The position numbers and the translations under genes are program-made. This document shows positions 6,692-44,108 of a stretch of 64,000 nucleotides of DNA, one piece after another. Under the pieces are notes generated by a model, which saw only the letters and a list, made by a program, of their open reading frames with translations, was not told the origin of the DNA and made no database searches. Origin of the DNA: Gemmatimonadota bacterium (GTDB lineage Bacteria; Gemmatimonadota; Gemmatimonadetes; Longimicrobiales; Gaopeijiaceae); contig JAPPNN010000018.1 of NCBI GenBank assembly GCA_028873815.1, positions 62,001 through 126,000 of the forward strand, given 5' to 3'. Within the stretch, counting starts at the first letter, position 1. The number at the start of each line of letters is the position of its first letter.

Positions 6692-8584
6692 TCAGGGCCT
6701 GGCCCCGGGGGCAAGGCCGCGGTGGTCGAAGCCGCGGCTGGTGTGGACGAGGAGCTCGAGGTTGCCGTTGACGATATCGTGCAGGAGTCTGGGGGACAGG
6801 TCTGCAACGCCATCGACATCCGATTCCTCCGGGCCGCCAAGGCGCAGGACTACGACGGGGCCGCCGTCGTTTTCGCCCTCCGCTTCGGGGGCGCGGCGGC
6901 GGAGCACCACGCCGTAGATGTCGGCGGGGTCGGTTGCGGAGACGGTGATGCGGTAGGACAGCGTGCCGGTCGGGAGGTCCACGGCCATGACGGCGTCGAC
7001 ACCATCGCCGCTGGGGGGATCGGTGGCGATTTGCACCGGGGGCGGTGCGGCGCCGTTGACCAGGGGCGGGGTGCGCAGCGGAGCGCGCCGTTTGGGATGC
7101 GCGGCCTCGTACGCGAACGCGAACGCGACGAGGCGGACGTCGTCGAGCGAGCGACCCAGCAGTTCCAGGCCGACCGGGAGGCCGCGCTCGGTGAAGCCGG
7201 CCGGGATGGTGAGCGCGGGCAACCCTGTGTGCGCGCTCAGGAAGCAGGTCGCGCCGGTGGGCGCCGCGCCGATGAGGGCGACCTCCTGCCGCATGGTCGA
7301 GTAGGCGAGCGCGTCGAGATCGTGCCGGGTGAGGAGGTCCACGACCGCCGCCGTCAGGGTCCGCCGGCGTTCCAGGGTCTCGTCGAGTTCGGGGGTGTCG
7401 CGGGCGGCGCGTTCGTTGCGGCGACGGAAGCTGCCGTCCAGCGCTTCGTGATGGAGGCCGGCTTCGAGGATCTCCTCCAGCGACGCGACGGGAGCGTTGG
7501 GGACGCCGGCCAGGTAGTCCATCAGGTCGAACTTGAAATCGAAGTCGATCAGGCCCGTGTTGGAGAGCAGGTCGTCCATGTCGGGGATTTCGACGTCCAG
7601 AACCGTTGCGCCGAGGGCTTCCATCTCGCCGAGCGCGTCGCGAATCACCCGGGTCACCGTGCCCGCGCTCCCCTGCTCCGGCACCCATGCTTCCAGCACA
7701 CCGATCCGGGCACCGTCCAGAGCGGCCGGATCGAGCGCAGCCTGGAAGTTCGGCGTTTCGCGCCCCTCGAGAATGGCGGTGGCGGGATCGGCAGGATCGG
7801 GCCCCACTGACGCGTCCAGCGCAATGGCCAGATCGGTCACGGTGCGCGCCAGCGGCCCGCCCGTGTCCTGCGAATGCGACAGTGGCAGAATCCCATCGAT
7901 GCTGGACAGCCCCTTGGTCGGCCGCAGCCCGAAGAGGTTGTGCACCGACGCGGGGATCCGGATCGAACCGCAGGTGTCGCTGCCCCAGGCCACGGCGGCG
8001 AAGCTGGCGGCGACAGCCGCGCCGGTCCCACCCGAACTGCCGCCAGGGTTGCGCGCCGGATCGTAGGGGTTTCGCGTCTGTCCGCCCAGCGAGCTGATCG
8101 TCGTGATCCCGGCTGCGAGTTCGTGCAGGTTCGTCTTGCCGAGAATGACCGCGCCGGCATCGAGCAGACGTTTCACCTGAAACGCGTTGTCGACCGGACG
8201 GAGGCCCGCCAGCGCCAGACTCGACCCGGTCGTGGGCATCCAGTCCATGTCGTAGTTGTCCTTCATGAGAACCGGGATGCCGTGCATGGGGCCACGCACC
8301 GTTCCCGCCGCCCGCTCTGCATCCAGCGCCGCGGCCTGCTCCCGCGCGAATGGATTCAGCCTGACGATGGTGTTGAGCGCCGGACCTGCACGATCGTAGG
8401 CCGCGATGCGGGCCTCGTAGGAATCGACCAGCTGCACCGAGGTGAACTGGCCCGCGGCCATCGCGGCCTGCAACTCTGGAATCGAGGCCTCGACGACCTC
8501 GAAGTCGATGTCGCTGGCGGACCTCGGGGGTCCGCACGCGGAGGCCATCGCGAGGAGGGCGACGAGAGTCAGGCGGGGAAGCAT
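6692..8584 (-). CDS. Amidase-signature lipoprotein with C-terminal CHRD-like domain
   Basis: Amidase motif NPGGSSGGTGAAVAA..GSDTCGSIRIPAS; lipobox MASAC; C-term GTLSYRITVSA...NGNLELLVHTSRG resembles CHRD. Confidence 0.85.
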   Translation of the reverse strand: MLPRLTLVALLAMASACGPPRSASDIDFEVVEASIPELQAAMAAGQFTSVQLVDSYEARIAAYDRAGPALNTIVRLNPFAREQAAALDAERAAGTVRGPMHGIPVLMKDNYDMDWMPTTGSSLALAGLRPVDNAFQVKRLLDAGAVILGKTNLHELAAGITTISSLGGQTRNPYDPARNPGGSSGGTGAAVAASFAAVAWGSDTCGSIRIPASVHNLFGLRPTKGLSSIDGILPLSHSQDTGGPLARTVTDLAIALDASVGPDPADPATAILEGRETPNFQAALDPAALDGARIGVLEAWVPEQGSAGTVTRVIRDALGEMEALGATVLDVEIPDMDDLLSNTGLIDFDFKFDLMDYLAGVPNAPVASLEEILEAGLHHEALDGSFRRRNERAARDTPELDETLERRRTLTAAVVDLLTRHDLDALAYSTMRQEVALIGAAPTGATCFLSAHTGLPALTIPAGFTERGLPVGLELLGRSLDDVRLVAFAFAYEAAHPKRRAPLRTPPLVNGAAPPPVQIATDPPSGDGVDAVMAVDLPTGTLSYRITVSATDPADIYGVVLRRRAPEAEGENDGGPVVVLRLGGPEESDVDGVADLSPRLLHDIVNGNLELLVHTSRGFDHRGLAPGARP

Positions 8585-26447: not shown

Positions 26448-26891
26448 ATGACCACAACGACCAGAGCCCTGCACATCGTTCGCACCGTAGCCGCGAGTCC
26501 CGAGCGGGTCTTCGAGGCGTGGACCGACCCGGAACAGGTGAAGCTCTGGACCTGTCCCGACCCGGGCGCGCGCGTGGACGTGGAGATCGACCTGCGGGTG
26601 GGCGGGCGCTACTCTATCCGCATGCACGTGGAGGGCGGGCCGTTCACCGCATACGGCACCTACCGCGAGGTCGATCCGCCGAGCCGGCTGGCGTACACCT
26701 GGGGCTGGAAGGAAGAGGCACACTCAATGAAGGCCGAGACGGTGGTGACGGTCGAATTCGTGCCGGTCGAAGGCGGGACGGAGATCCGGCTCACGCATGA
26801 CGGGTTCCCGACGACGGACGACCGCGACGGCCACGAGGAGGGGTGGACGATCTGCGTGGGGCGGATTGCCGCTCTGGTGGACGGACGATGA
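26448..26891 (+). CDS. SRPBCC/AHSA1-family protein
   Basis: HIVRTVAASPERVFEAWTDPEQVKLW; paired with ArsR. Confidence 0.88.
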   Translation: MTTTTRALHIVRTVAASPERVFEAWTDPEQVKLWTCPDPGARVDVEIDLRVGGRYSIRMHVEGGPFTAYGTYREVDPPSRLAYTWGWKEEAHSMKAETVVTVEFVPVEGGTEIRLTHDGFPTTDDRDGHEEGWTICVGRIAALVDGR

Positions 26892-27883
26892 GGGGCATGC
26901 CGATCCTGTCCGCGGGTCTCGCCCGGGCCGCCTCCACGGGCCTGGCTCTCGCCACATTCGCAGCACTCGCCCTGGCGGCCTGCGGGCCAGCCGCACAGCC
27001 AACGTCCAGGGTCCTGCTGATCGGGATCGACGGCGTACGCCCGGACGTGCTCACCGAGGTGCCGACGCCCAACATCGACGCGCTGGCCGCGAGCGGATGG
27101 TACACGGCCGAGGCGCGCACCACCACTCCGTCGGTGAGCGGTCCGTCGTGGTCCTCGATGCTGACCGGGGTGTGGCCCGAAAAGCACGGGGTCACCAACA
27201 ACAACTTCACGGGCCGCGACTACGACACCTGGCCCAGCTTCCTCATCCGGGCCGAAAGGGAGCGCCCCGAGCTGTCCACCTTCGCCGCGCTGGACTGGTT
27301 GCCGCTCGCGGAGCTTCCCGAAGGCGGCCCCGTTGTCCCGGCAACCGTCGACGAGCGCGCGGTGCTCGACGGCTACGAACACGGCTGGGCCGAAGGCGAC
27401 GGCCAGGTCACCGCGCAAGCCGTGCGTCACCTCGGCGAGGCCGACCCGGACGCCATGTTCGTCTACCTCGGCAATCCCGACGAGACCAGCCACCAGCACG
27501 GCTCGATCGGCGTCGAGTACCGGGCCGCGATCGCGCTCGCCGACCGGCACGTCGGCATGCTGATCGACGCCGTGCGAGCCCGCCCCGGGTACGCCAACGA
27601 GGACTGGCTCGTCCTGATCAGTACGGACCACGGACGGCGCGAGGACGGCGGCCACGGCGGGGACTCACCCGAGGAGATGACGATCTTCATCCTGGCGAGC
27701 GGGCTGGGCGCGGGCGGCCCAGGCGACGCTGGGGATCCCGGCGGCGCGGGCAACACCGCCGGCTGGCCACCCCCCGGTCCCGCCTACATCGTGGACATCG
27801 CCCCCACCGCGCTCGCCCACCTCGGCTTCGCGATCGATCCGGCCTGGGGGCTGGACGGGAGACCGCTGGGGGAGAGGCGGTAG
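26888..27883 (+). CDS. Alkaline phosphatase-superfamily phosphodiesterase, lipoprotein
   Basis: LLIGIDGVRPDVL, TTTPSVSGPSWSSMLTGVWPEKHGV, STDHGRREDGGHGG; lipobox LALAAC. Confidence 0.85.
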   Translation: MRGMPILSAGLARAASTGLALATFAALALAACGPAAQPTSRVLLIGIDGVRPDVLTEVPTPNIDALAASGWYTAEARTTTPSVSGPSWSSMLTGVWPEKHGVTNNNFTGRDYDTWPSFLIRAERERPELSTFAALDWLPLAELPEGGPVVPATVDERAVLDGYEHGWAEGDGQVTAQAVRHLGEADPDAMFVYLGNPDETSHQHGSIGVEYRAAIALADRHVGMLIDAVRARPGYANEDWLVLISTDHGRREDGGHGGDSPEEMTIFILASGLGAGGPGDAGDPGGAGNTAGWPPPGPAYIVDIAPTALAHLGFAIDPAWGLDGRPLGERR

Positions 27884-28060: not shown

Positions 28061-28894
28061 ATGCGGATCGCGCAGACCACCTGGCCGCTGTCGCTTGCGA
28101 CGCCGATCCTGCTATTGCTCTGCCCACCCGCCTCTGCGCAGGAGCCCGCCAGCGAAGCCATCGAAGTCGAGGACCCCGAGCGCTCGGAGCGCCTCTATCG
28201 AGCACACTGCGGGCGCTGCCATGGCGTCCAGGGACTGGGCGGAGAGGGACCGGAGCTCGCGCAACTGGTCCTGCCCAGAGTCGCGGACAGGACACAGCTC
28301 GAGCGGATCATTCGCAACGGGATCCCGGGGACCGGCATGCCCGGCGCACGGGCCACGATCCTCGACGACGAGGCGGTGGCGCTGGTGGCCGGCTACGTGC
28401 TTTGGCTGGGAGCGCAGACCACGGCCGACGCATCGGGAGTGACGGGCGACGCCGACCGGGGGCACGACCTCTTCTGGGCCGAGGGCGACTGCGCCTCCTG
28501 TCATATCGTGGCCGCACAGGGCACGGCCGTCGGGCCGGAACTTACGATCATCGGGCTGCGTCGCGGAGCGGACTACCTGCGGGAGGCCCTGAGCGCACCC
28601 GCCGCCCGGCTGCCCGTCGCGCGGTCCGGCGCCAGGAGCGGCTTTTTCGAGTACCTGCCGGTGCGGATTGTCACACACGACGGCGACATCTACAACGGCA
28701 TGCGGATGAACGAGGACTCCTTCACGATTCAGCTGATGACCGTTTCAGGAGTCTTCGTGTCGCTCCGCAAGAGCGAGATCGCCGAGATGGAGAGGCGCGT
28801 GGGGCACTCGCTCATGCCGGTGGCGCAGGACCTCGACGAAGACGATGTCGAAGATCTGGTGGCGTACCTGACGACCCTCGGGAGGGGATCATGA
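28061..28894 (+). CDS. Diheme c-type cytochrome, periplasmic
   Basis: CGRCH and CASCH heme motifs; signal peptide. Confidence 0.88.
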   Translation: MRIAQTTWPLSLATPILLLLCPPASAQEPASEAIEVEDPERSERLYRAHCGRCHGVQGLGGEGPELAQLVLPRVADRTQLERIIRNGIPGTGMPGARATILDDEAVALVAGYVLWLGAQTTADASGVTGDADRGHDLFWAEGDCASCHIVAAQGTAVGPELTIIGLRRGADYLREALSAPAARLPVARSGARSGFFEYLPVRIVTHDGDIYNGMRMNEDSFTIQLMTVSGVFVSLRKSEIAEMERRVGHSLMPVAQDLDEDDVEDLVAYLTTLGRGS

Positions 28895-31800
28895 GGAGAC
28901 GGAGCAAGGAGGTGCCGAGCGGCTGCGGGCTCCCGGCCCGCAAGGGGTGGTCGGCTTCGGGAATGGCCTTCGCGGTCTTCGCGCTGGGCGTGTCAATGGC
29001 CCAACCGGCCACCGGCCAGGTCCCCTACGAGCGCATCGTCGCGGCCGACTCCGAGCCGGAAAGCTGGCTCACCTACTCGGGCAACTACGCGTCGCACCGG
29101 TTCTCCCGGCTGGACCAGATCAACGCGGGGAACGTGGCGGATCTGCGCGTCGTGTGGGCCTACCAGATGGACGAGGGGCTGATCGAGACGACGCCGATCG
29201 TGGCGGACGGGGTCATGTACGTAACCGAGCCGCCGAGCACGGTGACGGCGCTGGACGCGCGCACGGGCAAACGGCTGTGGAAGTGGACGCCGCAGATGGG
29301 GTCGAACGTGCTGAACATCGGATTTCCCGAGGTGAATCGGGGCGTCGCGATCCTGGACTCGACGCTGTATGTGGGGACGCTCGATGCGCACCTGGTCGCG
29401 CTCGACGCGCGGTCTGGCGCCGTGCGCTGGGATGTCGAGGTCGCCGACAATGCGATCGGCTTCTCGCTGACGCTGGCGCCGCTGGCGCTCGACGGGAAGA
29501 TCATCGTCGGCGTGTCGGGCGCCGAGGCGGGCGTGCGCGGCTTCATCGACGCGTACGACCCCGAGACCGGCGAGCTGATGTGGCGCACTTATACGATCCC
29601 GGCGCCGGGCGAGTTCGGCAGCGACACCTGGGGAGGCAACAGCTGGGAGACCGGCGGCGGCTCGACGTGGCTGACCGGCTCGTACGACCCCGAACTCGAC
29701 CTGCTCTACTGGCCGATCGGCAACCCGGCCCCCGACTGGAACGGCGACCTGCGCCCCGGCGACAATCTCTACACGGACTGCCTGCTCGCGCTCGATCCCG
29801 ATACCGGCGAGATCGTGTGGTGGTTCCAGTTCACGCCCCACGACACCCACGACTGGGACGCCAACCAGATCCAGGTCCTGGTCGACGCCGAGTGGGAGGG
29901 CGAGCCCCGCAGGCTCGTCGTCACCGCCAACCGCAACGCCTTCTACTACGTGCTCGACCGGGAAACCGGCGAATTCCTGCACGGAACGGAGTACTCGAAG
30001 CAAACCTGGGCCGAGGGGCTGGACGAAAACGGCCGACCGATCGTGATCCCCGGGACAGACCCCACCGAAGAGGGCAACCTGGTGTGGCCCAGCCTGCAGG
30101 GCGCGGCCAACTGGTTCAGCCCCAGCTACAGTCCCATGACGCGTCTGTTCTACCAGCCAACGCGGATCATGGGCGCGATCTACTACAAGGCCGAGGTCGA
30201 GTACGAGCCCGGTCAGCCGTTCTACGGCGGCGGCGAGCAGGCGCTGCGCGGCGAGGAGGCCGGGGGCGCGGTGAAGGCGCTCGATGTGCTGACCGGCGAG
30301 CTCAAGTGGGAATTCCCGTTGCAGTCGCCACCGTGGGCCGGGGTGATGGCGACGGCCGGCAATCTCGTGTTCGGCGGGAGCGAGGAGGGGAACATCTTCG
30401 CGCTGGATGCCCAGACCGGGGAGCCGCTGTGGAACTTCCAGGCGGGCGCGGCGGTGCGGAGCGGGCCGATGTCCTACGAGATCGACGGGCAGCAGCGGAT
30501 CGTGAACTCGGCGGGCGGGACGATGTTCGTGTTCGGGCTGCCGGACAGCGGCGGGGACGGGGCGGCCGGTGACAACGGCGCGGCGAGCGCGCCGCGTGGG
30601 GGTCCGGCCGCGAATCCGCCCGGCGACAGCGAACCCGCCCACCGCCCCGTGGACCTCGCCATGCTCGCGAAGATCCGCGAGGAAGGGCTGCAACGCTCCC
30701 GGCTTCCGAACACCCTGTCCTACATGACCGACGTGGTCGGCGCGCGGCTCACCAATTCGGTTGCAATGGAGCGGGCGCAACAATGGGCCCTCGGGGAGAT
30801 GCGCCGGATCGGTCTCGAGAACACCCACCGCGAGCCCTTCATGAACTACGGCGCGAGCTGGGACAATGAGTATGTCTCGGTGCACATGATGGCGCCGGAC
30901 TACCAGCCGCTGGTCGCGTACCCGATCGCGCACACGCCGGGGACGGACGGGAAGCAGCGCCTGGACGTGGTGCTCGCCGACGTTCGCACTCGCGATCAGC
31001 TGGAGCCGCTGCGCGGCAGGCTGCGCGGTCTCGCGGTCATGTCGACGCCGCCGCCGGTCATCGACCTGGAGCGCTTCGCCACCGGCACACCGCGCCGCAC
31101 CGACGAGGAGATGCGCGCGCTCGAAGAGGACGTGATCCCGCCGCCGAACGGTCCCGACCCGTACTTCTCGCGGCTCTACCCCGACCCGCCGGCAAACCCG
31201 CAGGTGCTCACCGCTGCCGAACGGCTGGCGTTCTACGTGGAGGAAGGGGTGGCGCTGGTCCTCGAATCCAACAGCGGCTGGCCCGGGGCGGTGCGCGGGT
31301 TCGCGCGGCCGGGAGCGAAGGTCGACCGCTGGGACCGGGACGCCACCCTGTCATCGGTCCCGATCGTCGCGGTCACGCCCGAGCACTACAACCGCATGTA
31401 CCGGATCCTGAGGCGCGGCATCCCCGTCACCGTCGAGGCCGAGGTACGCAACGTGCACGGCGCCGGGGCCAGCGAGGCCACCAACGTGCTCGGCGAGATC
31501 CCCGGCACCGACCTCGCCCACGAAGTGGTCATGCTGGGCGCGCACTTCGACACCTGGCACGCCAGCCCCAACGCCAGCGACAACACGTCGGGCACGGCGG
31601 TCATGCTGGAAGCGATGCGCATCCTCAAGGCGGTCGGCGCCCGCCCGCGCCGCACGGTCCGCATCGCGCTCTGGTCCGGCGAGGAGCAGGGCATCTTCGG
31701 GTCGACGGCGTATGTGGTGAAGCACTTCGGCAGCCCGGGCGGCGAAGTGGGGCCAGGCGGCGCCGACGGGCCCGGCGGCACCCCCGGCACCACGCCCGCC

Positions 31801-32172
31801 TACGATGACTTTTCCGTCTACTTCAACCAGGACTACGGCCCCGGGCAGTATCGTGGGATCTGGCTGCAGGGCAACGAGCACGCACGCTCGCTGTTCGCAT
31901 CCTGGATGGAGCCCCTGCGCGACCTCGGCATGACCACGATTTCACCACGCAGCGTCGGCTCGACGGACCACATTCCCTTCGATCGCGCAGGCTTGCCGGG
32001 CTTCCAGTTCCTGCAGGCGCGCGTGGGTGGCACGGGCGGGCACACCAACCTCGACTTCTATGACACCCTGCCCATTGACGACCTTGTCAAAAACGCCGTC
32101 ATTGTGGCGTCGTTCGTCTACAACGCGGCGATGGACGACATGAAGGTGCCGAGAAAGCACCCGCAACCCTAG
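28891..32172 (+). CDS. PQQ-dependent alcohol dehydrogenase fused to M28-family metallopeptidase
   Basis: Single frame: PQQ repeats (VTALDARTGKRLWKW, LDPDTGEIVWWFQFTPHDTHDWD), Gly/Pro linker near 30541-30645, then M28 (GAHFDTWHASPNASDNTSGTAVMLEAMRIL, WSGEEQGIFGS). Confidence 0.85.
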   Translation: MRRRSKEVPSGCGLPARKGWSASGMAFAVFALGVSMAQPATGQVPYERIVAADSEPESWLTYSGNYASHRFSRLDQINAGNVADLRVVWAYQMDEGLIETTPIVADGVMYVTEPPSTVTALDARTGKRLWKWTPQMGSNVLNIGFPEVNRGVAILDSTLYVGTLDAHLVALDARSGAVRWDVEVADNAIGFSLTLAPLALDGKIIVGVSGAEAGVRGFIDAYDPETGELMWRTYTIPAPGEFGSDTWGGNSWETGGGSTWLTGSYDPELDLLYWPIGNPAPDWNGDLRPGDNLYTDCLLALDPDTGEIVWWFQFTPHDTHDWDANQIQVLVDAEWEGEPRRLVVTANRNAFYYVLDRETGEFLHGTEYSKQTWAEGLDENGRPIVIPGTDPTEEGNLVWPSLQGAANWFSPSYSPMTRLFYQPTRIMGAIYYKAEVEYEPGQPFYGGGEQALRGEEAGGAVKALDVLTGELKWEFPLQSPPWAGVMATAGNLVFGGSEEGNIFALDAQTGEPLWNFQAGAAVRSGPMSYEIDGQQRIVNSAGGTMFVFGLPDSGGDGAAGDNGAASAPRGGPAANPPGDSEPAHRPVDLAMLAKIREEGLQRSRLPNTLSYMTDVVGARLTNSVAMERAQQWALGEMRRIGLENTHREPFMNYGASWDNEYVSVHMMAPDYQPLVAYPIAHTPGTDGKQRLDVVLADVRTRDQLEPLRGRLRGLAVMSTPPPVIDLERFATGTPRRTDEEMRALEEDVIPPPNGPDPYFSRLYPDPPANPQVLTAAERLAFYVEEGVALVLESNSGWPGAVRGFARPGAKVDRWDRDATLSSVPIVAVTPEHYNRMYRILRRGIPVTVEAEVRNVHGAGASEATNVLGEIPGTDLAHEVVMLGAHFDTWHASPNASDNTSGTAVMLEAMRILKAVGARPRRTVRIALWSGEEQGIFGSTAYVVKHFGSPGGEVGPGGADGPGGTPGTTPAYDDFSVYFNQDYGPGQYRGIWLQGNEHARSLFASWMEPLRDLGMTTISPRSVGSTDHIPFDRAGLPGFQFLQARVGGTGGHTNLDFYDTLPIDDLVKNAVIVASFVYNAAMDDMKVPRKHPQP

Positions 32173-32191: not shown

Positions 32192-32518
32192 ATGCTATTC
32201 GGAATCTACGGAAGCCACACGCCGGAAACCTGCCCGATCTACGTACGCAAGTACGCCCGGGTGTTCGTCGACATCGCCGAACTCGACCCGGCGCATATCG
32301 CCGAGGCCTACGGCATCCGACGGGTCGATGTACAGTACCACTCGGCGCTGGAGCACACGTTCCTGTGGGTCGTCGAAGCGGATGACCCCACCGCGATCGA
32401 ACGATTCGCCATCGACACCGGCCTCGCCTCGTTCAATATGCTGGAGATCGTTCCGGTTCACACGTTCGCCGAGACGGTCGAGCGCTTGAAGGACAGGCAC
32501 GACCTCGGGCGGGGGTAG
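32192..32518 (+). CDS. Small hypothetical protein (ferredoxin-like fold guess)
   Basis: ORF with codon-consistent product; family uncertain. Confidence 0.5.
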   Translation: MLFGIYGSHTPETCPIYVRKYARVFVDIAELDPAHIAEAYGIRRVDVQYHSALEHTFLWVVEADDPTAIERFAIDTGLASFNMLEIVPVHTFAETVERLKDRHDLGRG

Positions 32519-32534: not shown

Positions 32535-33044
32535 ATGAGCCATTTGCACCGGACCCGAATCGCCCGCACAATCGAAATCTTCGAGGCGGCGCGGCGGCCG
32601 CTGTTCATGGTGCTCGACGGGATCGCGCAGGAGGACTTCGACTGGAATCCGGCACCCGGATCGCGCGGGATCGGCAAGATGTGCCGCCACATGTACCGCG
32701 TGGACGTCTGGTTTCTGAAGCGGCTGGGGATCGAGCCCGTGATCAGCCACGACGCCCCGGGGCCGGTCGACGAGGTCGCAGGGCGAATGCGCCGGGTCCA
32801 GGAGCAGATTCTGGCAGAGGTGGAGGGGTGTGAGAGCGACGCGGACCTCATGGCCGAGCGGACCTCGCTCGACGGCGAGACGGGGGCGCGGCTGGGGGCA
32901 GATGTGGTCCACATCGCGCAGCACTATCTCTATCACCTGGCCCAGATGACGTACCTGCGGCGTATCCGCGACCGGGATTGGAGCGCACCCCTCGACGAGT
33001 GGGAGCACGCGACGCACCTGATCGGGGATTTGGTGCTGGAGTAG
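32535..33044 (+). CDS. DinB-family protein
   Basis: DinB-like four-helix pattern with HMYRVDVWFL and HIAQHYLYHLAQMTYLRR. Confidence 0.7.
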   Translation: MSHLHRTRIARTIEIFEAARRPLFMVLDGIAQEDFDWNPAPGSRGIGKMCRHMYRVDVWFLKRLGIEPVISHDAPGPVDEVAGRMRRVQEQILAEVEGCESDADLMAERTSLDGETGARLGADVVHIAQHYLYHLAQMTYLRRIRDRDWSAPLDEWEHATHLIGDLVLE

Positions 33045-35459: not shown

Positions 35460-38400
35460 CTAGGGAAGCCTCGCCTCAGCCAGCCTCATGATCTGCGCCA
35501 GCAGGTCGTCCATCTGCGCCTCGGTCAGCTCGATCCCCTTCTCGTCCCGTAGCACATCGTAGAAGTAGTCGTCGATCGCGTTGCGCATGCCGTTCTGGGC
35601 GGTCTCGTTCGACCACACGTCGACGATGTGGCGCTCGTGGATGATGTCCATGACAGCCAGCGCGACCTCGGCCGCTTCATCGTCTCCCAACGCTTCCTCG
35701 CAATCGTCCTTGAGCGTTCCCTTGAAGATCCCGTAGAACGCCATCCCGTGGTCGTTGCCACGGAGCGCGGCCGGCACGTCACGCTCCTCGTGCCCCCGCG
35801 CCACCTTCGACGCGATTTTGACCACGCCGTCCAAGTAGTCGCTCTCCGACTTCCGTTTCTGGCGGTACTCCTCGATGGTGTCCTCGAGCAGCTTGGAGAA
35901 CCGCTCGTAAAAGGCGGGGTCCAGGTCCATGCGTTCAGTGATGGCCCGGCGAGTGGCACTCGCGATCCGGTCGGCCTTGGACGCGGAAGTGATCCCGGTC
36001 TCCTCGACCACCGCCTTCAGGACGCCGGTGTCGTGGATGTCAACCAGCTTGATCACGGTCTCGGCGGGCTTCGCGGCCACATGACGGTCGAGGAGGCGCC
36101 TGATCTTCGGTTCGAATTCCTTGACGTCCACGGCCTCCTGGTAGCGGATCCGGACCGACTGGCGCAGATCGCTGAAGCCCCGCCAGTCGCGCTTCATTTC
36201 CGCGATCTGCCCCTCGTCGAACACGTCGAAGACCTTCTCCGACGAGAGCGAGATGTGTAGGCAGCGTGAGAAGGCGCGCAACCGCCCGTAGAAGTCCTGG
36301 CGGATGGCTTCGTCGGCCAGAAACTGCTCCATCGCCTCCATATCCTTCTTGTTCCGAACCGGCTGGAAGAGGTCCCACAACCGACCGCGGTAGTGACTCA
36401 GTTTCCCGACCTCCTCGCGCACATCGAGGACGGCACCGACTAGGTCGTCGGGGTCGTAGCCTTCCAGCGCGCTGTAGGTGTTAAGGGCACTGTCAAGTTC
36501 GCCGAGCAGACCCTGGTAGTCGATGATGAAGCCGAACTTCTTCTCCGACTCGCCTTCCTCGTGGAGCCTGTTCACCCGCGCGATCGCCTGCAGCAGGTTG
36601 TGCTCCTTCAGCGGCTTGCATACGTAGAGGACCGTGTTGCGGGGCGCGTCGAACCCGGTCAGCAGCTTGGAAACGACGATCAGGATCTCAGGTGTGCCGG
36701 GGCCCTTGAATGTGTCGATGACCCGCCGATTGTACTCGGTCTCCGAGCCGTGGCGCTCCATCGTCTTCGCCCAGAAGGCGCGCACCGTGTCCTTTGACGT
36801 CTCGTCGACCTCCTCGTTCCCCTCGCGGTCGTCCGGCGCGGAGATGACGATCTCGCTGGTCACGTCTCCGATCTCGTCAAGCGCCTCCTTGAAGCGGATG
36901 GCCGCGGCCTTCGACGGAGCCACCAGCTGCGCCTTGAAGCCGGTTCCCTGCCAGTGACGGTGAAAGTGCTCGGATATGTCGAGCGCCTTCGCGCGAATCG
37001 CCTGCTCGGTCTGCGACAGCGCGTCAAGACGCGAGAACTTGCGCTTCAGGTCCGCCCTCTGGTCCTCGTTCAGGGGTTCGCAGAGCTTGTCGAACCAGCT
37101 GTCGATGGTCTGGGCGCTGACCTGCTGGTCCACGAACCGCCCCTCGTAGAGCAGGGGCACGACGGCGCCGTCTTCGACCGCCTCGTCGATCGCGTACCGG
37201 TGGATCAGGCCGCCAAAAGTCGCGAAGGTGCTCTTCTCGCGGCTCAGTAGGGGGGTCCCGGTGAAGCCGAGGTAGCAGGCCCCCGGAAGGAGGCGGCGCA
37301 TCTTGAGGGCCATCTGCCCGTAGCCTTGGAACTTCCCCGCATGCGAGCGGTGGCTCTCATCGACCAGCACGAAGAGGTTGGGGTCGTCGTCCGGCTTGCC
37401 CGAGTACCTGAGCGCTGTGTCGAATTTGTTGACGAGCGTGGTGACGAGCGGCGTACGGTCGCGGATGAGACCGAACAAGTGGCGGCCGCTCCGCGCGCGG
37501 ACCGGTTCCAGTTCGCAGGACTTGAAGGTGTCGCGGATCTGCCGGTCCAAGTCGGTGCGGTCGGTGACGATGATGATGCGAGGGTTGACGATTTCGTTGT
37601 CGAGGGCGAGCGCGCGGCCGAGCATGACCATGGTGAGGGATTTGCCGGAGCCCTGGGTGTGCCAGACCACGCCGCCCTGCCGTTTGCCGGTGGGGTCGAT
37701 GTGCTTGATGCGCTGCATGGAGTGGTGGACGGCGAAGTACTGCTGGTGGCGGGCGATCTTGCGGACGCCGGCGTCGAAGACGGTAAAGCGGCGGACCAGG
37801 TCGAGGAGGCGGCTGGGACGGCAGAGGGCATGGATGGCGCGATCCTGGGGGGTGATGGCGCGGGCACCCTCGTCAGCAAGTGCCTCGAAGTACGGGCGGG
37901 CGGCGGCAAAGTCACCGGAGTAGATGGCGGCGGCTTCGTCGGCGGCTAGCGGACGGTTAATTGCCGATTGGAGATCGGCTGGAACTACGGTGGCCTGATA
38001 TCCCGTTGAGTCCGGTGCTGTGTCGGTAAGGATAGATGCGCCCGCGGCACGCTGAGGCCCGACACCGGTTGTAGTGTCCACGTCGTCCATCGTGGGCTCG
38101 GCAGCCATGGCCATCTCTCCCTGCATGCTGCCGCCGTTCTCCGGTTCCGGCTCTCGCCAACCCTGCCAGAACTTCTTGGCGGTACCGACCGTCGCGTAGC
38201 GTGCCTCCTTGCGGTTGAGCGCCAAGAGGAGGTGAGCGAAGTGGAAAAAGTGCGGGATGTTATCTTCGTGTTGGTAGCCGATCAACTGGCTCCCGGCCTT
38301 CTGGACGCTCTCGGTAGGCCGCTTGTTCTCGATGACGATGAAGGGGATGCCGTTCACGAAGGCGACGACATCGAGGCGTCGGGTCTTGAAGCTACCCGTG

Positions 38401-38837
38401 CGCTCCACCTCCATCTCGGCAGTGACGTGGTACACGTTGTTCGCGGGTTCCTCCCAGTCGACGTACCGGAACGAGTACGACTTCGAGTCACCGCCGATCT
38501 TCTGCGTGATGCTCGTCCCGAGCACGAGAAGGTCATAGATCTCCTGGTTGGTGCGACGGAGTCCCTGGACCTGATCCGGGCTGGGGTGGAGGCACCGGAT
38601 AGCCTCGTGGGCATCTTCCAGGTCGAAGCGGTAGCGGCGGCCGCGGTACGCGAACCGGTTGATCGCGAGGAGCCGGTCCGTGAGGATGTCGTCCAGGAGG
38701 ACGTTGCGGAGGCGGCCGCCGCGGCAGTGGAGGGCTTCGGCCTGGGAGAGTGGGGTGTACCCGAGCGCGACGAGGAGTTGCAGCGCGGGGAGCTGGGACT
38801 GGTGCTTCTCGGTGGGGTTGAAGGTCATGGGAGTCAA
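35460..38837 (-). CDS. hsdR: Type I restriction enzyme R subunit
   Basis: RLDVVAFVNGIPFIVIENKRP nuclease motif; GGVVWHTQGSGKSLTMVML, LVDESHRSHAGK, LTGFDAP helicase motifs. Confidence 0.93.
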   Translation of the reverse strand: MTPMTFNPTEKHQSQLPALQLLVALGYTPLSQAEALHCRGGRLRNVLLDDILTDRLLAINRFAYRGRRYRFDLEDAHEAIRCLHPSPDQVQGLRRTNQEIYDLLVLGTSITQKIGGDSKSYSFRYVDWEEPANNVYHVTAEMEVERTGSFKTRRLDVVAFVNGIPFIVIENKRPTESVQKAGSQLIGYQHEDNIPHFFHFAHLLLALNRKEARYATVGTAKKFWQGWREPEPENGGSMQGEMAMAAEPTMDDVDTTTGVGPQRAAGASILTDTAPDSTGYQATVVPADLQSAINRPLAADEAAAIYSGDFAAARPYFEALADEGARAITPQDRAIHALCRPSRLLDLVRRFTVFDAGVRKIARHQQYFAVHHSMQRIKHIDPTGKRQGGVVWHTQGSGKSLTMVMLGRALALDNEIVNPRIIIVTDRTDLDRQIRDTFKSCELEPVRARSGRHLFGLIRDRTPLVTTLVNKFDTALRYSGKPDDDPNLFVLVDESHRSHAGKFQGYGQMALKMRRLLPGACYLGFTGTPLLSREKSTFATFGGLIHRYAIDEAVEDGAVVPLLYEGRFVDQQVSAQTIDSWFDKLCEPLNEDQRADLKRKFSRLDALSQTEQAIRAKALDISEHFHRHWQGTGFKAQLVAPSKAAAIRFKEALDEIGDVTSEIVISAPDDREGNEEVDETSKDTVRAFWAKTMERHGSETEYNRRVIDTFKGPGTPEILIVVSKLLTGFDAPRNTVLYVCKPLKEHNLLQAIARVNRLHEEGESEKKFGFIIDYQGLLGELDSALNTYSALEGYDPDDLVGAVLDVREEVGKLSHYRGRLWDLFQPVRNKKDMEAMEQFLADEAIRQDFYGRLRAFSRCLHISLSSEKVFDVFDEGQIAEMKRDWRGFSDLRQSVRIRYQEAVDVKEFEPKIRRLLDRHVAAKPAETVIKLVDIHDTGVLKAVVEETGITSASKADRIASATRRAITERMDLDPAFYERFSKLLEDTIEEYRQKRKSESDYLDGVVKIASKVARGHEERDVPAALRGNDHGMAFYGIFKGTLKDDCEEALGDDEAAEVALAVMDIIHERHIVDVWSNETAQNGMRNAIDDYFYDVLRDEKGIELTEAQMDDLLAQIMRLAEARLP

Positions 38838-38930
38838 GATCGGCTGCCAAACAAGATCAGAGCAATCCCATCACAAGACAGCGCCCCAAGAAAGGCGCGA
38901 TCCCAACGTCGGGATCCCCCGGTTGCGATT

Positions 38931-40112
38931 TCAATCGCAGTAGTCGAACGGTACCGGTCTGCCGCTCCACCGCGAATAGTAGTTCGATCCATCGGTGTAG
39001 GCGCTCCCCAACTTTCGGGCCCTGCGAATCCTCTCCGGTGCCAACGTCACAAGCCTCGGCGATGACGTGAGATCTGGAACCTCTTCCCCTCTCTGCCCAA
39101 AACCGTCGTCGCTGGTGACCCTCCCCGTCAGCTCCAACAACAGCGCCGAGTAAGGAGTCTCCTTGAGCACCACCGCAAAGCTGTTCGTAATCATCCCATA
39201 TCCACCCGAGCTATGGAGCACTCGCTGCAAGTCGCCCCGAGCGGCATCCAATACGGACGCCACGAGCTCATCGCTCACCACTAAGCGCTTGTCTTCTACG
39301 ATTCCGTCATAGGCATCTGCACACCACTTTCGCACGTCCGTCGACACGTACAACTCCATACGCACATTGTCCCGTTCGGCAAACCTTTTGGCGCTTGGCA
39401 GATATCGGGACGTCGTTACAAGCATCGTCTTGGTCACATTGTCGGCCATCGCGGCACCGTATAGTGCTTGAACCGTTCCTAAACGCACAGGACGATCTTT
39501 TCGAAAACGCTTAACCTGCACATACGTCACAATGTCCCCAATCGGATCCCGTTGTAGCAGCTGGATGTCGACCCCGCCATCGCTCCTGCCGCTGCCCAAC
39601 TGAACATCGTATCCCTGAGATTCGAGCAGCGATGCCACGATCTTCTCAAACGCTCTCCAATCCAGTTTCGCCATGTCTCCAGGTCGCGACGAAAGGTGCT
39701 CATACAGTTCACTGTAAAGCAAATCAAACCCCGGCTGGATCAAGCTACAGATCCACTTCCATCGCATGTACGGACGATAGTCTTGGCGAAGCTCCTCGTC
39801 AAATGGATATATCCATAGGCTACCATAATCGTGATTCTCATACCAGAACCCGTGCTGCCTCAGTATATTCTCGAACTCTTCAGGTTGGTATGCGTATCCG
39901 CCACCGGACCCCATCACGACGTCCGCAAGCGGTCCGTCGGCAGCCAATACCAAGACGTACGCTGTATCGTCCCATTCCACGGGCTTGATCCGGTCCGTGT
40001 AGTCGAAGAAGTCGCAATCGAGCCATAGGTCGCGTCGTTGTGCCCACGACTCTACGTCATTACGCAACCGCACGATTCTATTCTGGAGTTGGGAATCTGC
40101 AATCTGCGTCAT
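38931..40112 (-). CDS. Mrr-like PD-(D/E)XK restriction endonuclease
   Basis: DWRAFEKIVASLLESQGYDVQLGSGRSDGGVDIQL...YVQVKRF. Confidence 0.8.
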   Translation of the reverse strand: MTQIADSQLQNRIVRLRNDVESWAQRRDLWLDCDFFDYTDRIKPVEWDDTAYVLVLAADGPLADVVMGSGGGYAYQPEEFENILRQHGFWYENHDYGSLWIYPFDEELRQDYRPYMRWKWICSLIQPGFDLLYSELYEHLSSRPGDMAKLDWRAFEKIVASLLESQGYDVQLGSGRSDGGVDIQLLQRDPIGDIVTYVQVKRFRKDRPVRLGTVQALYGAAMADNVTKTMLVTTSRYLPSAKRFAERDNVRMELYVSTDVRKWCADAYDGIVEDKRLVVSDELVASVLDAARGDLQRVLHSSGGYGMITNSFAVVLKETPYSALLLELTGRVTSDDGFGQRGEEVPDLTSSPRLVTLAPERIRRARKLGSAYTDGSNYYSRWSGRPVPFDYCD

Positions 40113-40168
40113 GCATATACCTCCACCCTCGATTGATCGCATCGAATCGCACAGAGTTCGACCACATA

Positions 40169-41338
40169 TCACGTCTGTGCCATTCCTATTAGTCGACTAG
40201 CCACTCCACGTGCTTGCTTTATCAACAACGCCCGGTAGTCATCGAACAGGGTGACCTCTCGTTCCAATTCCTTTAGCGACGCGACGTGTTGTAGCTGAAG
40301 GCGAGGCGCTGGAAGGAACACTCTGATCCCAGCCAACGACGCGTAGCGCAGATTCCATGTGTCCGACGTCAATCCTTGCGAATACCGTCTGAAATCAAAG
40401 ACCATGCGAGGACTCTTGAAGAGACGCGCAGCGTAGTCGGCACTCACCTGTGAGGCCTTTGGAGTGAGCACTGTGTACGCGGGGCTAACAATGCCACGCT
40501 GCGTCGCTAAGCCCGACACACCCTGCCACATGCGCATGGTATTATATCCAATATCACCAGGTAGTATAAGTCTATAGCCTAGCCTTCCGGGGCTCGAACT
40601 GTCCTTCCGACCCAGCAACTTGTGAGGCACGACACCATGGGTCATAGAAATGCCGAAGAGTGGATCCGATGATGTTCCGGATTGCTTGCGTTCTTGGAAC
40701 AGGTCACCTAGTCGGAATGCACGCCATGACGCAGGGCGGTTGCGATAGGTAGGATGGCAGGGTGCGAATACTCGCTGTTGTATACCGATATAGAGACGAC
40801 GCGCCTCCTTCGCGAGGCGCGAGAGCATGTCGATGGCAGCTTCCCAAGTACGCAGGATGTTCGCGATTCTGGCCTGCTCCAAAAGAGGGGGATGCGGCAC
40901 CAGCGTGGACATCAGAGAATCAGTAGTTAGACGACCAGTGCCGTGCCCGGCCTTTTCGACATAGTGGAGTATAGATGCCTTCCTCGCGACTAGAGCGAAA
41001 GCCAGAAACTCGCTGTCGATGTCGGCAGATGGTATGAGGGACTTGATGTCCTGATTGAAACAGACCGGTTCGGGACAGTGAGTGATAGGCAGATCTCGGA
41101 AGAGGCCCATCCCCCGAACTAGTACTAATACAGATCCTCCTGGAGAGACCGTCGCTTTGGTTGCCCCGAGCTCAGTGAGAGTATTCGTTGTGACAGACAG
41201 CCGCATCGCCTTCATGTCCTTGACGGTAACCCAGGGCACGTCACCGCCCCAATACTCGAGAATCGATTTGTTTGGTGTGCTTCCGGAGCGAACCTCTGCC
41301 AAGTCACCCAAGGGTCTTGACGACCACAATCTACGCAC
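40169..41338 (-). CDS. hsdS: Type I restriction specificity subunit
   Basis: Two TRD-like halves; PHPPLLEQARIANILRTWEAAIDML conserved region. Confidence 0.88.
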   Translation of the reverse strand: MRRLWSSRPLGDLAEVRSGSTPNKSILEYWGGDVPWVTVKDMKAMRLSVTTNTLTELGATKATVSPGGSVLVLVRGMGLFRDLPITHCPEPVCFNQDIKSLIPSADIDSEFLAFALVARKASILHYVEKAGHGTGRLTTDSLMSTLVPHPPLLEQARIANILRTWEAAIDMLSRLAKEARRLYIGIQQRVFAPCHPTYRNRPASWRAFRLGDLFQERKQSGTSSDPLFGISMTHGVVPHKLLGRKDSSSPGRLGYRLILPGDIGYNTMRMWQGVSGLATQRGIVSPAYTVLTPKASQVSADYAARLFKSPRMVFDFRRYSQGLTSDTWNLRYASLAGIRVFLPAPRLQLQHVASLKELEREVTLFDDYRALLIKQARGVASRLIGMAQT

Positions 41339-41398
41339 TAGCGGCCGACCTTCGTCTGTATTGAGGGGTTGTTACAGGTCCGCTCAGCGTCCGTGGGT

Positions 41399-41703
41399 TC
41401 ATCCCGTTTCCCCGTTCGCGTCTTGGGCCGCTATGCACCCAGCATCAGAGATCGAATAGCCGTCCCTCGCGGCTCCATTGGCTTCCGCGGCTGTCGCAGA
41501 TATCAATGAATTCTCGACAACCGACGGCCACAGTGCCCTTTCCGCTACAGAGTTCGTCATGTGAGACTGACCCTGTGCTTCGTGGTACCAAATGACTCCG
41601 TCACCTGGCCCGTATTGACCCGATCCGTCCCTTCTGTCGCCTAGAGTCGGATCTCCAATCCCTGCTCCCTGACGAGTCGCACCGCTTCCCTCACCTTGGG
41701 CAT
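41399..41703 (-). pseudogene. Degenerate small ORF, possibly a HicA-like remnant
   Basis: ATG at 41703 gives MPKVREAVRLVREQGLEIRL* then a frame-shifted GSGQYGPGDG. Confidence 0.25.
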
Positions 41704-41709
41704 CCCACC

Positions 41710-43224
41710 TCACACCTCCACCCCCAACTCCAGTAGATACCCCCGCATCTTCGCCCGCACCTCCACGAGCTCGGCCTCGACCTTGTCGATCTCCCGCTGG
41801 ACCTCCGCGATGTCGATCTCCTCCTCGGGCTCGAACGTGTCCACATAGCGCGGGATGTTCAGGTTGTAATCGTTCTCGATGATCTCCTCGGGCGAGGCCA
41901 CGTGGGAGTACTGCTCGATCGCCTCACGCTGCCGGTATGCCTCGACCACCATCGCAATGTGCTCCTCCTCCATCACGTTCTGTCTTTTGCCGGGCGTGAA
42001 CTCCGTGCTGGCGTCGATGAAGAGCACATCGAAGCGGTCCTCGTTCTCGCCGCCCTCTTCGCGAGACCGGTCGAGGACTAGGATCGCAACGGGGATCCCC
42101 GTGGTCGCGAAGAGCTTCGCGGGCAAGCCGATCACCGCGTCCAGGAGGTTCTCCTCCATCAGCGCTTTGCGGATGCGGGCCTCGCGATGGCCCCGAAAGA
42201 GCACGCCGTGGGGGACAATCACCGCAACCCGCCCGCTCCGCCGCTCGGCGATCTCGATCATGTGGGTGATGAAGGCGTAGTCACCCTTCGAGGGCGGGGG
42301 AACGCCGCGCCAGAAGCGGCCGTAGGGGTCGTTGTCCGCGTTCTCGGCGCCCCACTTCTTGAGCGAGAAGGGAGGGTTGGCGACCACGATGTTGAAGGTC
42401 TTGAGCCGATCGTCCTCGATCAGGGTGGGGCCGGTCAGCGTGTTGCACCAGTCGATGCGGGCCGCGTCCTTCGCGTGAAGGAACATGTTCATGCGGGCCA
42501 GCGCCCACGTCGCCCCATTCGCCTCCTGCCCGTAGAGCGAGAAGTTCTTCGACCCGACCTCTTCGGCCGCGCGGATCAGCAGCGAGCCCGAGCCGCACGC
42601 CGGATCGCAGATCGTGTCGCCGTCCTTCGGGGCGGCCAGCTTGGCCAGGAGACGGGAGACGGCGGATGGCGTGTAGAACTCTCCCGCCTTCTTTCCGGCA
42701 TCCGACGCGAAACGCGATATCAGGTAGATGTAGCACTCGCCGATGACATCGCCGGTCACCCTGGACGGACGCAGGTCCAGGGCGGGCTTGGCGAAGTCCT
42801 CCAGCAGGTTTTTGAGGCGGCGGTTGCGGTCCTTCGTCCGACCGAGGTTCGCCTCCGAATTGAAGTCGATGTTGCGAAAGACCCCCTCGAGTTTCGCGCG
42901 GTTCCTGTCCTCGATGTCCTCCAGCGCGATGTTGATCAGTTCGCCGATGTTCGGCTCGTTCCGCTGCTCGTAGAGCGTCTGGAAGCGGGCGCTTTCGGGG
43001 AGGACGAAGCGCTCGCGGTCCAAGCGGCGGCGGATGCGGGCCTCGTTGTCGCCGTAGCGCTTTCGGTAGGTCTCGACGTGCTCGTCCCAGAGATCCGAGA
43101 TGTACTTCAGGAACAGCATCACGAGGATGTAGTCCTTGTACTGGCCCGCGTCGACGACGCCCCGGAAGGTGTCGCAGGCAGCCCACGCGGTCTGGTTGAC
43201 CTGATCCTGGGTGGTTTGGGTCAT
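41710..43224 (-). CDS. hsdM: Type I DNA methyltransferase M subunit
   Basis: AKLAAPKDGDTICDPACGSGSLLIRAAE and VVANPPFSLKKWG (NPPF) motifs. Confidence 0.94.
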   Translation of the reverse strand: MTQTTQDQVNQTAWAACDTFRGVVDAGQYKDYILVMLFLKYISDLWDEHVETYRKRYGDNEARIRRRLDRERFVLPESARFQTLYEQRNEPNIGELINIALEDIEDRNRAKLEGVFRNIDFNSEANLGRTKDRNRRLKNLLEDFAKPALDLRPSRVTGDVIGECYIYLISRFASDAGKKAGEFYTPSAVSRLLAKLAAPKDGDTICDPACGSGSLLIRAAEEVGSKNFSLYGQEANGATWALARMNMFLHAKDAARIDWCNTLTGPTLIEDDRLKTFNIVVANPPFSLKKWGAENADNDPYGRFWRGVPPPSKGDYAFITHMIEIAERRSGRVAVIVPHGVLFRGHREARIRKALMEENLLDAVIGLPAKLFATTGIPVAILVLDRSREEGGENEDRFDVLFIDASTEFTPGKRQNVMEEEHIAMVVEAYRQREAIEQYSHVASPEEIIENDYNLNIPRYVDTFEPEEEIDIAEVQREIDKVEAELVEVRAKMRGYLLELGVEV

Positions 43225-44108
43225 CAATGGGCCTTCTTGCGTGACGGGGCGTTCTGAGAGCCGAACTTTCGCCACAGGTAGCTGCAGAATGCGGCGCAGG
43301 CTCCGATCATGAAGATGGCTTCGTCCCGCGTTACCTTCGACTCGTCTTCCAGCAACGCATGGCGGACGCCTGGCTCGTCGGACGCGTAGCCGTAGAGAGA
43401 TGAGAGTCCGCTCTTTAGGGCGCCGTGGAGATCCTGTTGCCGCTCCAGTGCCGCCAGTGCCTTCCCTAGGGTATCGGCGCTATCCGGTGTGACCTGTTTG
43501 GCCACTGACTCGATAGCGTCGATGCTGGCACGGACGCTACCGGCCCAGTCCTGTTCGCGGATGCGTTCACCAGCATGCCGGAGATGCTCTGCCGCGCCCC
43601 CCAGGCCAGCCCCTTCCAGGTCGTGAATGGCCCCGACTAAGGCATCGCCCTCTTGCTCGGTAGCCGCCGGGACAATCGTTGGGTTCGAGGTCGTGTCGAC
43701 CCGATAGGCCAACTGGTAGTGGAAGATCTCCTTGACCTCAGCAACCAATGAGCCAGGGCAAACAGGATGCCGCATCAACGTCTCTAGGAGATCAAAACAA
43801 TCGTAGTAGTCGCCATGGAGGAGCACGGACCGACACTCCGATCGCCAATGCGATATTGAAGGATCGAAATCATCGAGTGGTTGTACGAAAAGGTCTTGGT
43901 GTACGACCGCGAATACTCGCTGCCACTGCGGACCGAGCTTTGCGTATCTCCCGGTTGTCGCGTTGAGTTGCATGTACCTCCAGAGCGTACTCCAGAGATT
44001 GTTGCGCGCTCGCTCACTGATCTCCTCCAACTGCGGCGGTCCTGGTATCTCTCGAAGTCCGTATCGCTCAGAGAAGGTCGGTACATTCTGGTGTGGGTTG
44101 TGATGCAT
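43224..44108 (-). CDS. AbiJ_NTD4-like / HEPN-type abortive-infection candidate
   Basis: FSERYGLREIPGPPQLEEISERARNNLWSTLW N-terminus; C-terminal AEHLRHAGERIREQDWAGSVRASIDAIESVAKQ helical region. Confidence 0.65.
   Translation of the reverse strand: MHHNPHQNVPTFSERYGLREIPGPPQLEEISERARNNLWSTLWRYMQLNATTGRYAKLGPQWQRVFAVVHQDLFVQPLDDFDPSISHWRSECRSVLLHGDYYDCFDLLETLMRHPVCPGSLVAEVKEIFHYQLAYRVDTTSNPTIVPAATEQEGDALVGAIHDLEGAGLGGAAEHLRHAGERIREQDWAGSVRASIDAIESVAKQVTPDSADTLGKALAALERQQDLHGALKSGLSSLYGYASDEPGVRHALLEDESKVTRDEAIFMIGACAAFCSYLWRKFGSQNAPSRKKAH

Follow-up and report, generated by a model that had tools for sequence, protein, structure and literature searches.

Can a quinoprotein alcohol dehydrogenase and a metallopeptidase be encoded by a single gene, and what would the resulting protein do? 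The question arises from a stretch of 64,000 nucleotides of a Gemmatimonadota genome (contig JAPPNN010000018.1, positions 62,001 to 126,000), termed the window in the following, for which an earlier note had proposed an in-frame fusion of a PQQ alcohol dehydrogenase with an M28 peptidase. Translation of positions 28891–32172 (plus strand) yielded one uninterrupted frame without a stop codon, as claimed, which encodes 1,093 amino acids. Pfam matched both families within this one protein, i.e., PF01011 (PQQ) at residues 59–367 and a second stretch (9.4e-83), and PF04389 (Peptidase_M28) at residues 865–1075 (2.3e-27; 96.4 bits versus a gathering score of 21.3 bits). The assignment of the coding sequence rests on the translation, the Pfam and NCBIfam matches, and five further intact orthologues. 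The signal peptide that had been proposed was found as a predicted export signal at residues 1–43 (28891–29019, plus strand), with a putative start and a putative cleavage site between AQPATGQ and VPYERI. The signal region was variable among relatives, and conservation set in with VPYERI. The ATG at 28891 overlaps the stop codon of the preceding cytochrome gene (28892–28894) in the ATGA arrangement described before, and this arrangement was kept in most relatives, which supports 28891 as the predicted start.

The orthologue search covered 59 genomes, namely, the window's own genome and relatives. Five other genomes of the genus (G001, G002, G006, G014, and G017) proved to encode intact fused orthologues with 88–95% identity. 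One of these, G001, is a single-contig chromosome of 4,091,820 bases (OX638356.1). In G016, the dehydrogenase frame reaches a contig edge at FGLP, and the peptidase frame lies at the beginning of another contig, where linker-like residues come first, so that G016 is almost certainly a seventh fused genome of the genus. A sequencing or assembly artefact that joined two genes might be suspected, as the region is rich in GC and the break in G016 falls into the linker. However, the six intact orthologues, the window included, come from different assemblies, among them the single-contig chromosome, and their linkers (33–48 residues by the cut used in this comparison) differed by whole codons only. 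Therefore, the artefact was rejected, and its probability is negligible. No frameshift was evident, and the relatives did not turn out to have separate genes only, which were the two outcomes that, according to the earlier note, would have refuted the fusion. The fusion of two enzymes in one gene is thus confirmed as genuine.

The dehydrogenase propeller comprises residues 44–550 (29020–30540, plus strand), as delimited with Pfam, alignments, and Foldseek. Its completeness was borne out by Pfam, by the methanol/ethanol family model TIGR03075 of NCBIfam (546 bits, above the cut-off of 480 bits), and by the ligand alignment. The metal ligands E212 and N278, the catalytic D321, R348, and the Trp floor (W260 and W408) were all present; the metal ligands and the catalytic Asp as well as the D-x-D motif (D321-W-D323) were conserved in 21 of 21 PQQ rows of the alignment. 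The extra Asp beside the catalytic Asp is treated as an indicator of lanthanide binding (PMC11996626). Judged from these residues, the metal of the propeller is probably a lanthanide. The same propeller is found in the lanthanide-dependent quinoprotein PedH (PDB 6zcw/6zcv; phmmer 1e-110), and 6zcw had Foldseek rank 1 for the predicted model (TM 0.81 by target). The Glu/Asn/Asp metal ligands and the D-x-D motif are shared with PedH and the TIGR03075 family, but in contrast to that family, the protein has a C-terminal peptidase and no adjacent-cysteine ring, and the genus seems incapable of PQQ synthesis. At the place aligned to the Cys-Cys ring over PQQ, F145-P146 were found. The ring is not considered universal across the superfamily, and its absence lowers the confidence in activity and leaves the homology unaffected. 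The sequence search also matched the propeller to the quinohemoprotein alcohol dehydrogenases 1kv9, 1kb0, and 1yiq, which carry a C-terminal extra domain behind a PQQ propeller within one chain. In those enzymes, the extra domain is an electron-taking cytochrome c, whereas a peptidase takes this place in the present protein, with the cytochrome encoded by a separate gene.

The propeller is followed by a Gly/Ala/Pro linker of 34 residues (551–584; 30541–30642, plus strand), which was predicted to be disordered and lies essentially where a low-complexity linker had been reported (about 30541–30645). The AlphaFold model (mean pLDDT 76, pTM 0.53) contained two folded domains and a disordered linker, with pLDDT values of about 28–44 at residues 521–580 and without confidence in the overall arrangement. 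Residues 585–1093 (30643–32172, plus strand) form a complete mature M28 peptidase without a signal peptide of its own, according to Pfam, alignments, and Foldseek. The catalytic motifs that had been recognized before were confirmed at the level of all six residues: The zinc ligands H/D/E/D/H and the catalytic Glu (H885, D897, E931, E932, D981, and H1051) were present and were conserved in 41 of 41 M28 rows. The Shewanella M28 protein 3iib agrees with this half in fold (Foldseek TM 0.73 by target) and in the metal and catalytic residues, but the identity is only about 18% over the fold match, and the M28 part described here is a C-terminal domain that lacks its own signal. Much higher identities of 57–78% over the whole M28 half were found for standalone orthologues from Gemmatimonadota, Acidobacteriota, Marinimicrobia, and Aminicenantes MAGs. 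The genes of these proteins stand alone, include a signal peptide of their own, and do not adjoin the PQQ orthologue. In the standalone proteins with printed N-termini, a stretch that was judged by eye to be signal-peptide-like directly precedes the conserved VDxxMIARIREEGL. In the fusion, this start comes after the linker, and the joint lies exactly where the standalone signal peptide would end. Thus, nothing but the signal is missing from the peptidase, and the export would have to proceed via the N-terminus of the dehydrogenase. Pairwise dN/dS values were 0.03–0.09 for the PQQ half and 0.09–0.18 for the M28 half, which indicates purifying selection on both halves and a slower evolution of the propeller.

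Directly upstream, an exported c-type cytochrome is encoded at 28061–28894 (plus strand), and its proposed diheme character was supported by two CxxCH motifs at 28208–28222 and 28490–28504. The pairing of cytochrome and PQQ gene was also found in unfused relatives and in genera without the fusion, and the cytochrome is likely to be the electron acceptor of the dehydrogenase. The locus order ArsR, SRPBCC, phosphodiesterase, cytochrome, PQQ, M28, DUF3303, and DinB was largely kept in the genus. In the window, the phosphodiesterase is a lipoprotein-like type I enzyme (PF01663, Pfam; 26843–27883, plus strand), and in G030, a genome from another genus, its homologue forms a fusion with the same peptidase. 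The DUF3303 gene (32192–32518, plus strand) is a variable neighbour downstream of the fusion, and the next gene (32535–33044, plus strand) belongs to the DinB superfamily; in G010 and G019, DinB comes immediately after the unfused PQQ gene. In G008, a divergent phosphodiesterase gene (L141, 6752–7771) lies between the unfused PQQ gene and DUF3303, directly before the latter. It occupies the place that the peptidase has in fused species, and it groups with the M28-fused phosphodiesterase of G030.

The distribution of the architecture turned out to be narrow. Among 23 genomes of the genus, seven contained the fusion (six intact, one contig-split), four contained the dehydrogenase alone (G004, G008, G010, and G019), and in 12 the orthologue was absent. 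In the four dehydrogenase-only congeners, the frame ends between a few and about twenty residues past the propeller, in most cases behind a short Gly-rich tail, and an orthologous peptidase was not found elsewhere in these four genomes. Outside the genus, no PQQ-M28 fusion was detected in 121 family genomes with the M28 half as query, nor in 154 order-level and 395 phylum-level genomes with the whole protein as query; there is overlap among these three samples. M28 relatives were listed at 80 named loci, of which four came from the fused genus (three intact, one truncated by a contig edge), and the remainder had no PQQ domain in frame. Two long standalone-M28 frames (L079 with 1,007 amino acids, and L128) were considered as further fusions and were rejected, because Pfam matched M28 only; their upstream part reads as an ordinary open frame that is followed by a signal peptide. 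In other genera, the PQQ and M28 halves are separate, unlinked genes on different contigs. The possibility raised earlier that relatives have separate genes therefore applies to most relatives outside the genus and not to the seven fused species within it. Hence, the domain pairing, for which a search across genomes had been advised, was confined to one genus in the samples searched. The earlier note knew of no described enzyme of this kind, and a contrary description was not found in the literature searched, the coverage of which was incomplete. The architecture appears to be new and is lineage-restricted, and both enzyme families are well known. An unfused PQQ orthologue with 89% identity to that of the window was found in a different genus (G098:C9:104804-106546), which looks like a transfer between genera.

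How the fusion arose can be approached from the trees. In the tree of the PQQ part, species with and without the fusion were intermixed; the fused ones do not form a clade, and at least four changes were needed. The history comprises either one gain and about four losses or several gains. An ancestral neighbouring pair of separate PQQ and M28 genes was sought in relatives, and none was found. The PQQ gene of the outgroup G033 has no Gly-rich tail. The Gly-rich tails in unfused species may therefore be remnants of the linker, and this would speak for a single early fusion with subsequent losses. In several species pairs, the dS of the M28 half was lower than that of the PQQ half, so that recombination is possible. 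G030 encodes an in-frame fusion of a phosphodiesterase with M28 (L013:362-2881, minus strand; 840 amino acids) with almost no linker, known from one MAG and located near a contig end. Its M28 part nests inside the PQQ-fused clade (p-AU 0.031, moderate support), and this placement suggests that the peptidase module changed its partner in the G030 lineage.

Which function could such a protein have? The reading that we consider rather probable, judged from sequence comparisons, is that of one exported polypeptide with two independent enzymes. A peptidase gene without its signal peptide would have become joined downstream of the dehydrogenase gene, several species would then have lost the fusion, and the peptidase would have moved behind a phosphodiesterase in one lineage. 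The whole polypeptide would be exported via the N-terminal signal of the dehydrogenase. In the periplasm, the propeller would contain scavenged PQQ and probably a lanthanide, oxidize an alcohol, and deliver the electrons to the diheme cytochrome of the preceding gene, and the C-terminal M28 domain on its flexible tether would trim peptides on its own. The link would thus provide joint export and equal amounts rather than a shared reaction. The independence of the halves is indicated by the facts that they occur apart elsewhere, that the peptidase comes and goes without a visible effect on the propeller, and that it has another partner in G030. A coupled two-step enzyme, in which M28 cleaves an amino-acid or peptide group off a conjugate and the PQQ half oxidizes the released alcohol, or the reverse, would be in agreement with the retention of the fusion in seven species under purifying selection on both halves, and with the export of both halves into the same compartment. 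This retention could reflect a shared substrate. Nevertheless, such an enzyme is rather unlikely, given that other genera have the two halves as unlinked genes, that the peptidase is absent from four congeners with the dehydrogenase, and that an unrelated phosphodiesterase is its partner in G030. A new bifunctional oxidoreductase-peptidase with halves that act sequentially on a single class of peptide-linked alcohols and donate electrons to the co-encoded diheme cytochrome, would be a little less likely still. The long, exposed, and disordered linker with its variable length and sequence might also be cut after export, and the fusion would then be the precursor of two ordinary separate enzymes. 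However, a conserved cleavage motif was not visible in the linkers of six orthologues, and we regard this processing as improbable.

The supply of PQQ leads to an alternative of a different kind. A profile search revealed no pqqE above the cut-off in 23 genomes of the genus, and pqqC was not found in the genus genomes searched, two single-contig ones included. In the family, pqqC exceeded the cut-off in one of 78 genomes, which belongs to another genus and from which the same search recovered the true pqqC. Therefore, the dehydrogenase either uses PQQ from outside or has an empty site, and the activity of this half is not assured. An empty quinoprotein whose main role is to carry the peptidase, as a scaffold or for export, would be in congruence with these results, with the absence of the Cys-Cys ring, and with the high score against TIGR04528 (acido-empty-quinoprotein group A), a group for which the score of 539 bits is nevertheless below the membership cut-off of 650. 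In contrast, the conservation of the metal ligands, the catalytic Asp, and the D-x-D motif in every PQQ row, the slower evolution of the propeller compared with the peptidase, and the conserved pairing with the cytochrome argue against this alternative; moreover, external PQQ can be imported. Taken together, an empty propeller appears unlikely, and the two-enzyme polypeptide is preferred. Irrespective of that choice, the locus represents a clean, recent, and naturally occurring fusion between a peptidase and a dehydrogenase linked to the respiratory chain, and the fused, unfused, and partner-switched states in its relatives make it testable why such fusions arise and vanish. It also draws attention to conserved PQQ dehydrogenases in a genus that is seemingly unable to make PQQ. 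Most members of the genus (G000–G022) encode several PQQ-type propeller proteins per genome, yet pqqC and pqqE were not found.

Two further observations were made elsewhere in the window. A Type I restriction system with HsdR, HsdS, and HsdM is encoded at 35460–43275 (minus strand), with a gene for an Mrr-like endonuclease (38931–40172) between HsdR and HsdS. At 6692–8584 (minus strand), an amidase with a weak C-terminal match to the CHRD domain, below the Pfam cut-off, is a possible further case of an unusual domain pairing.
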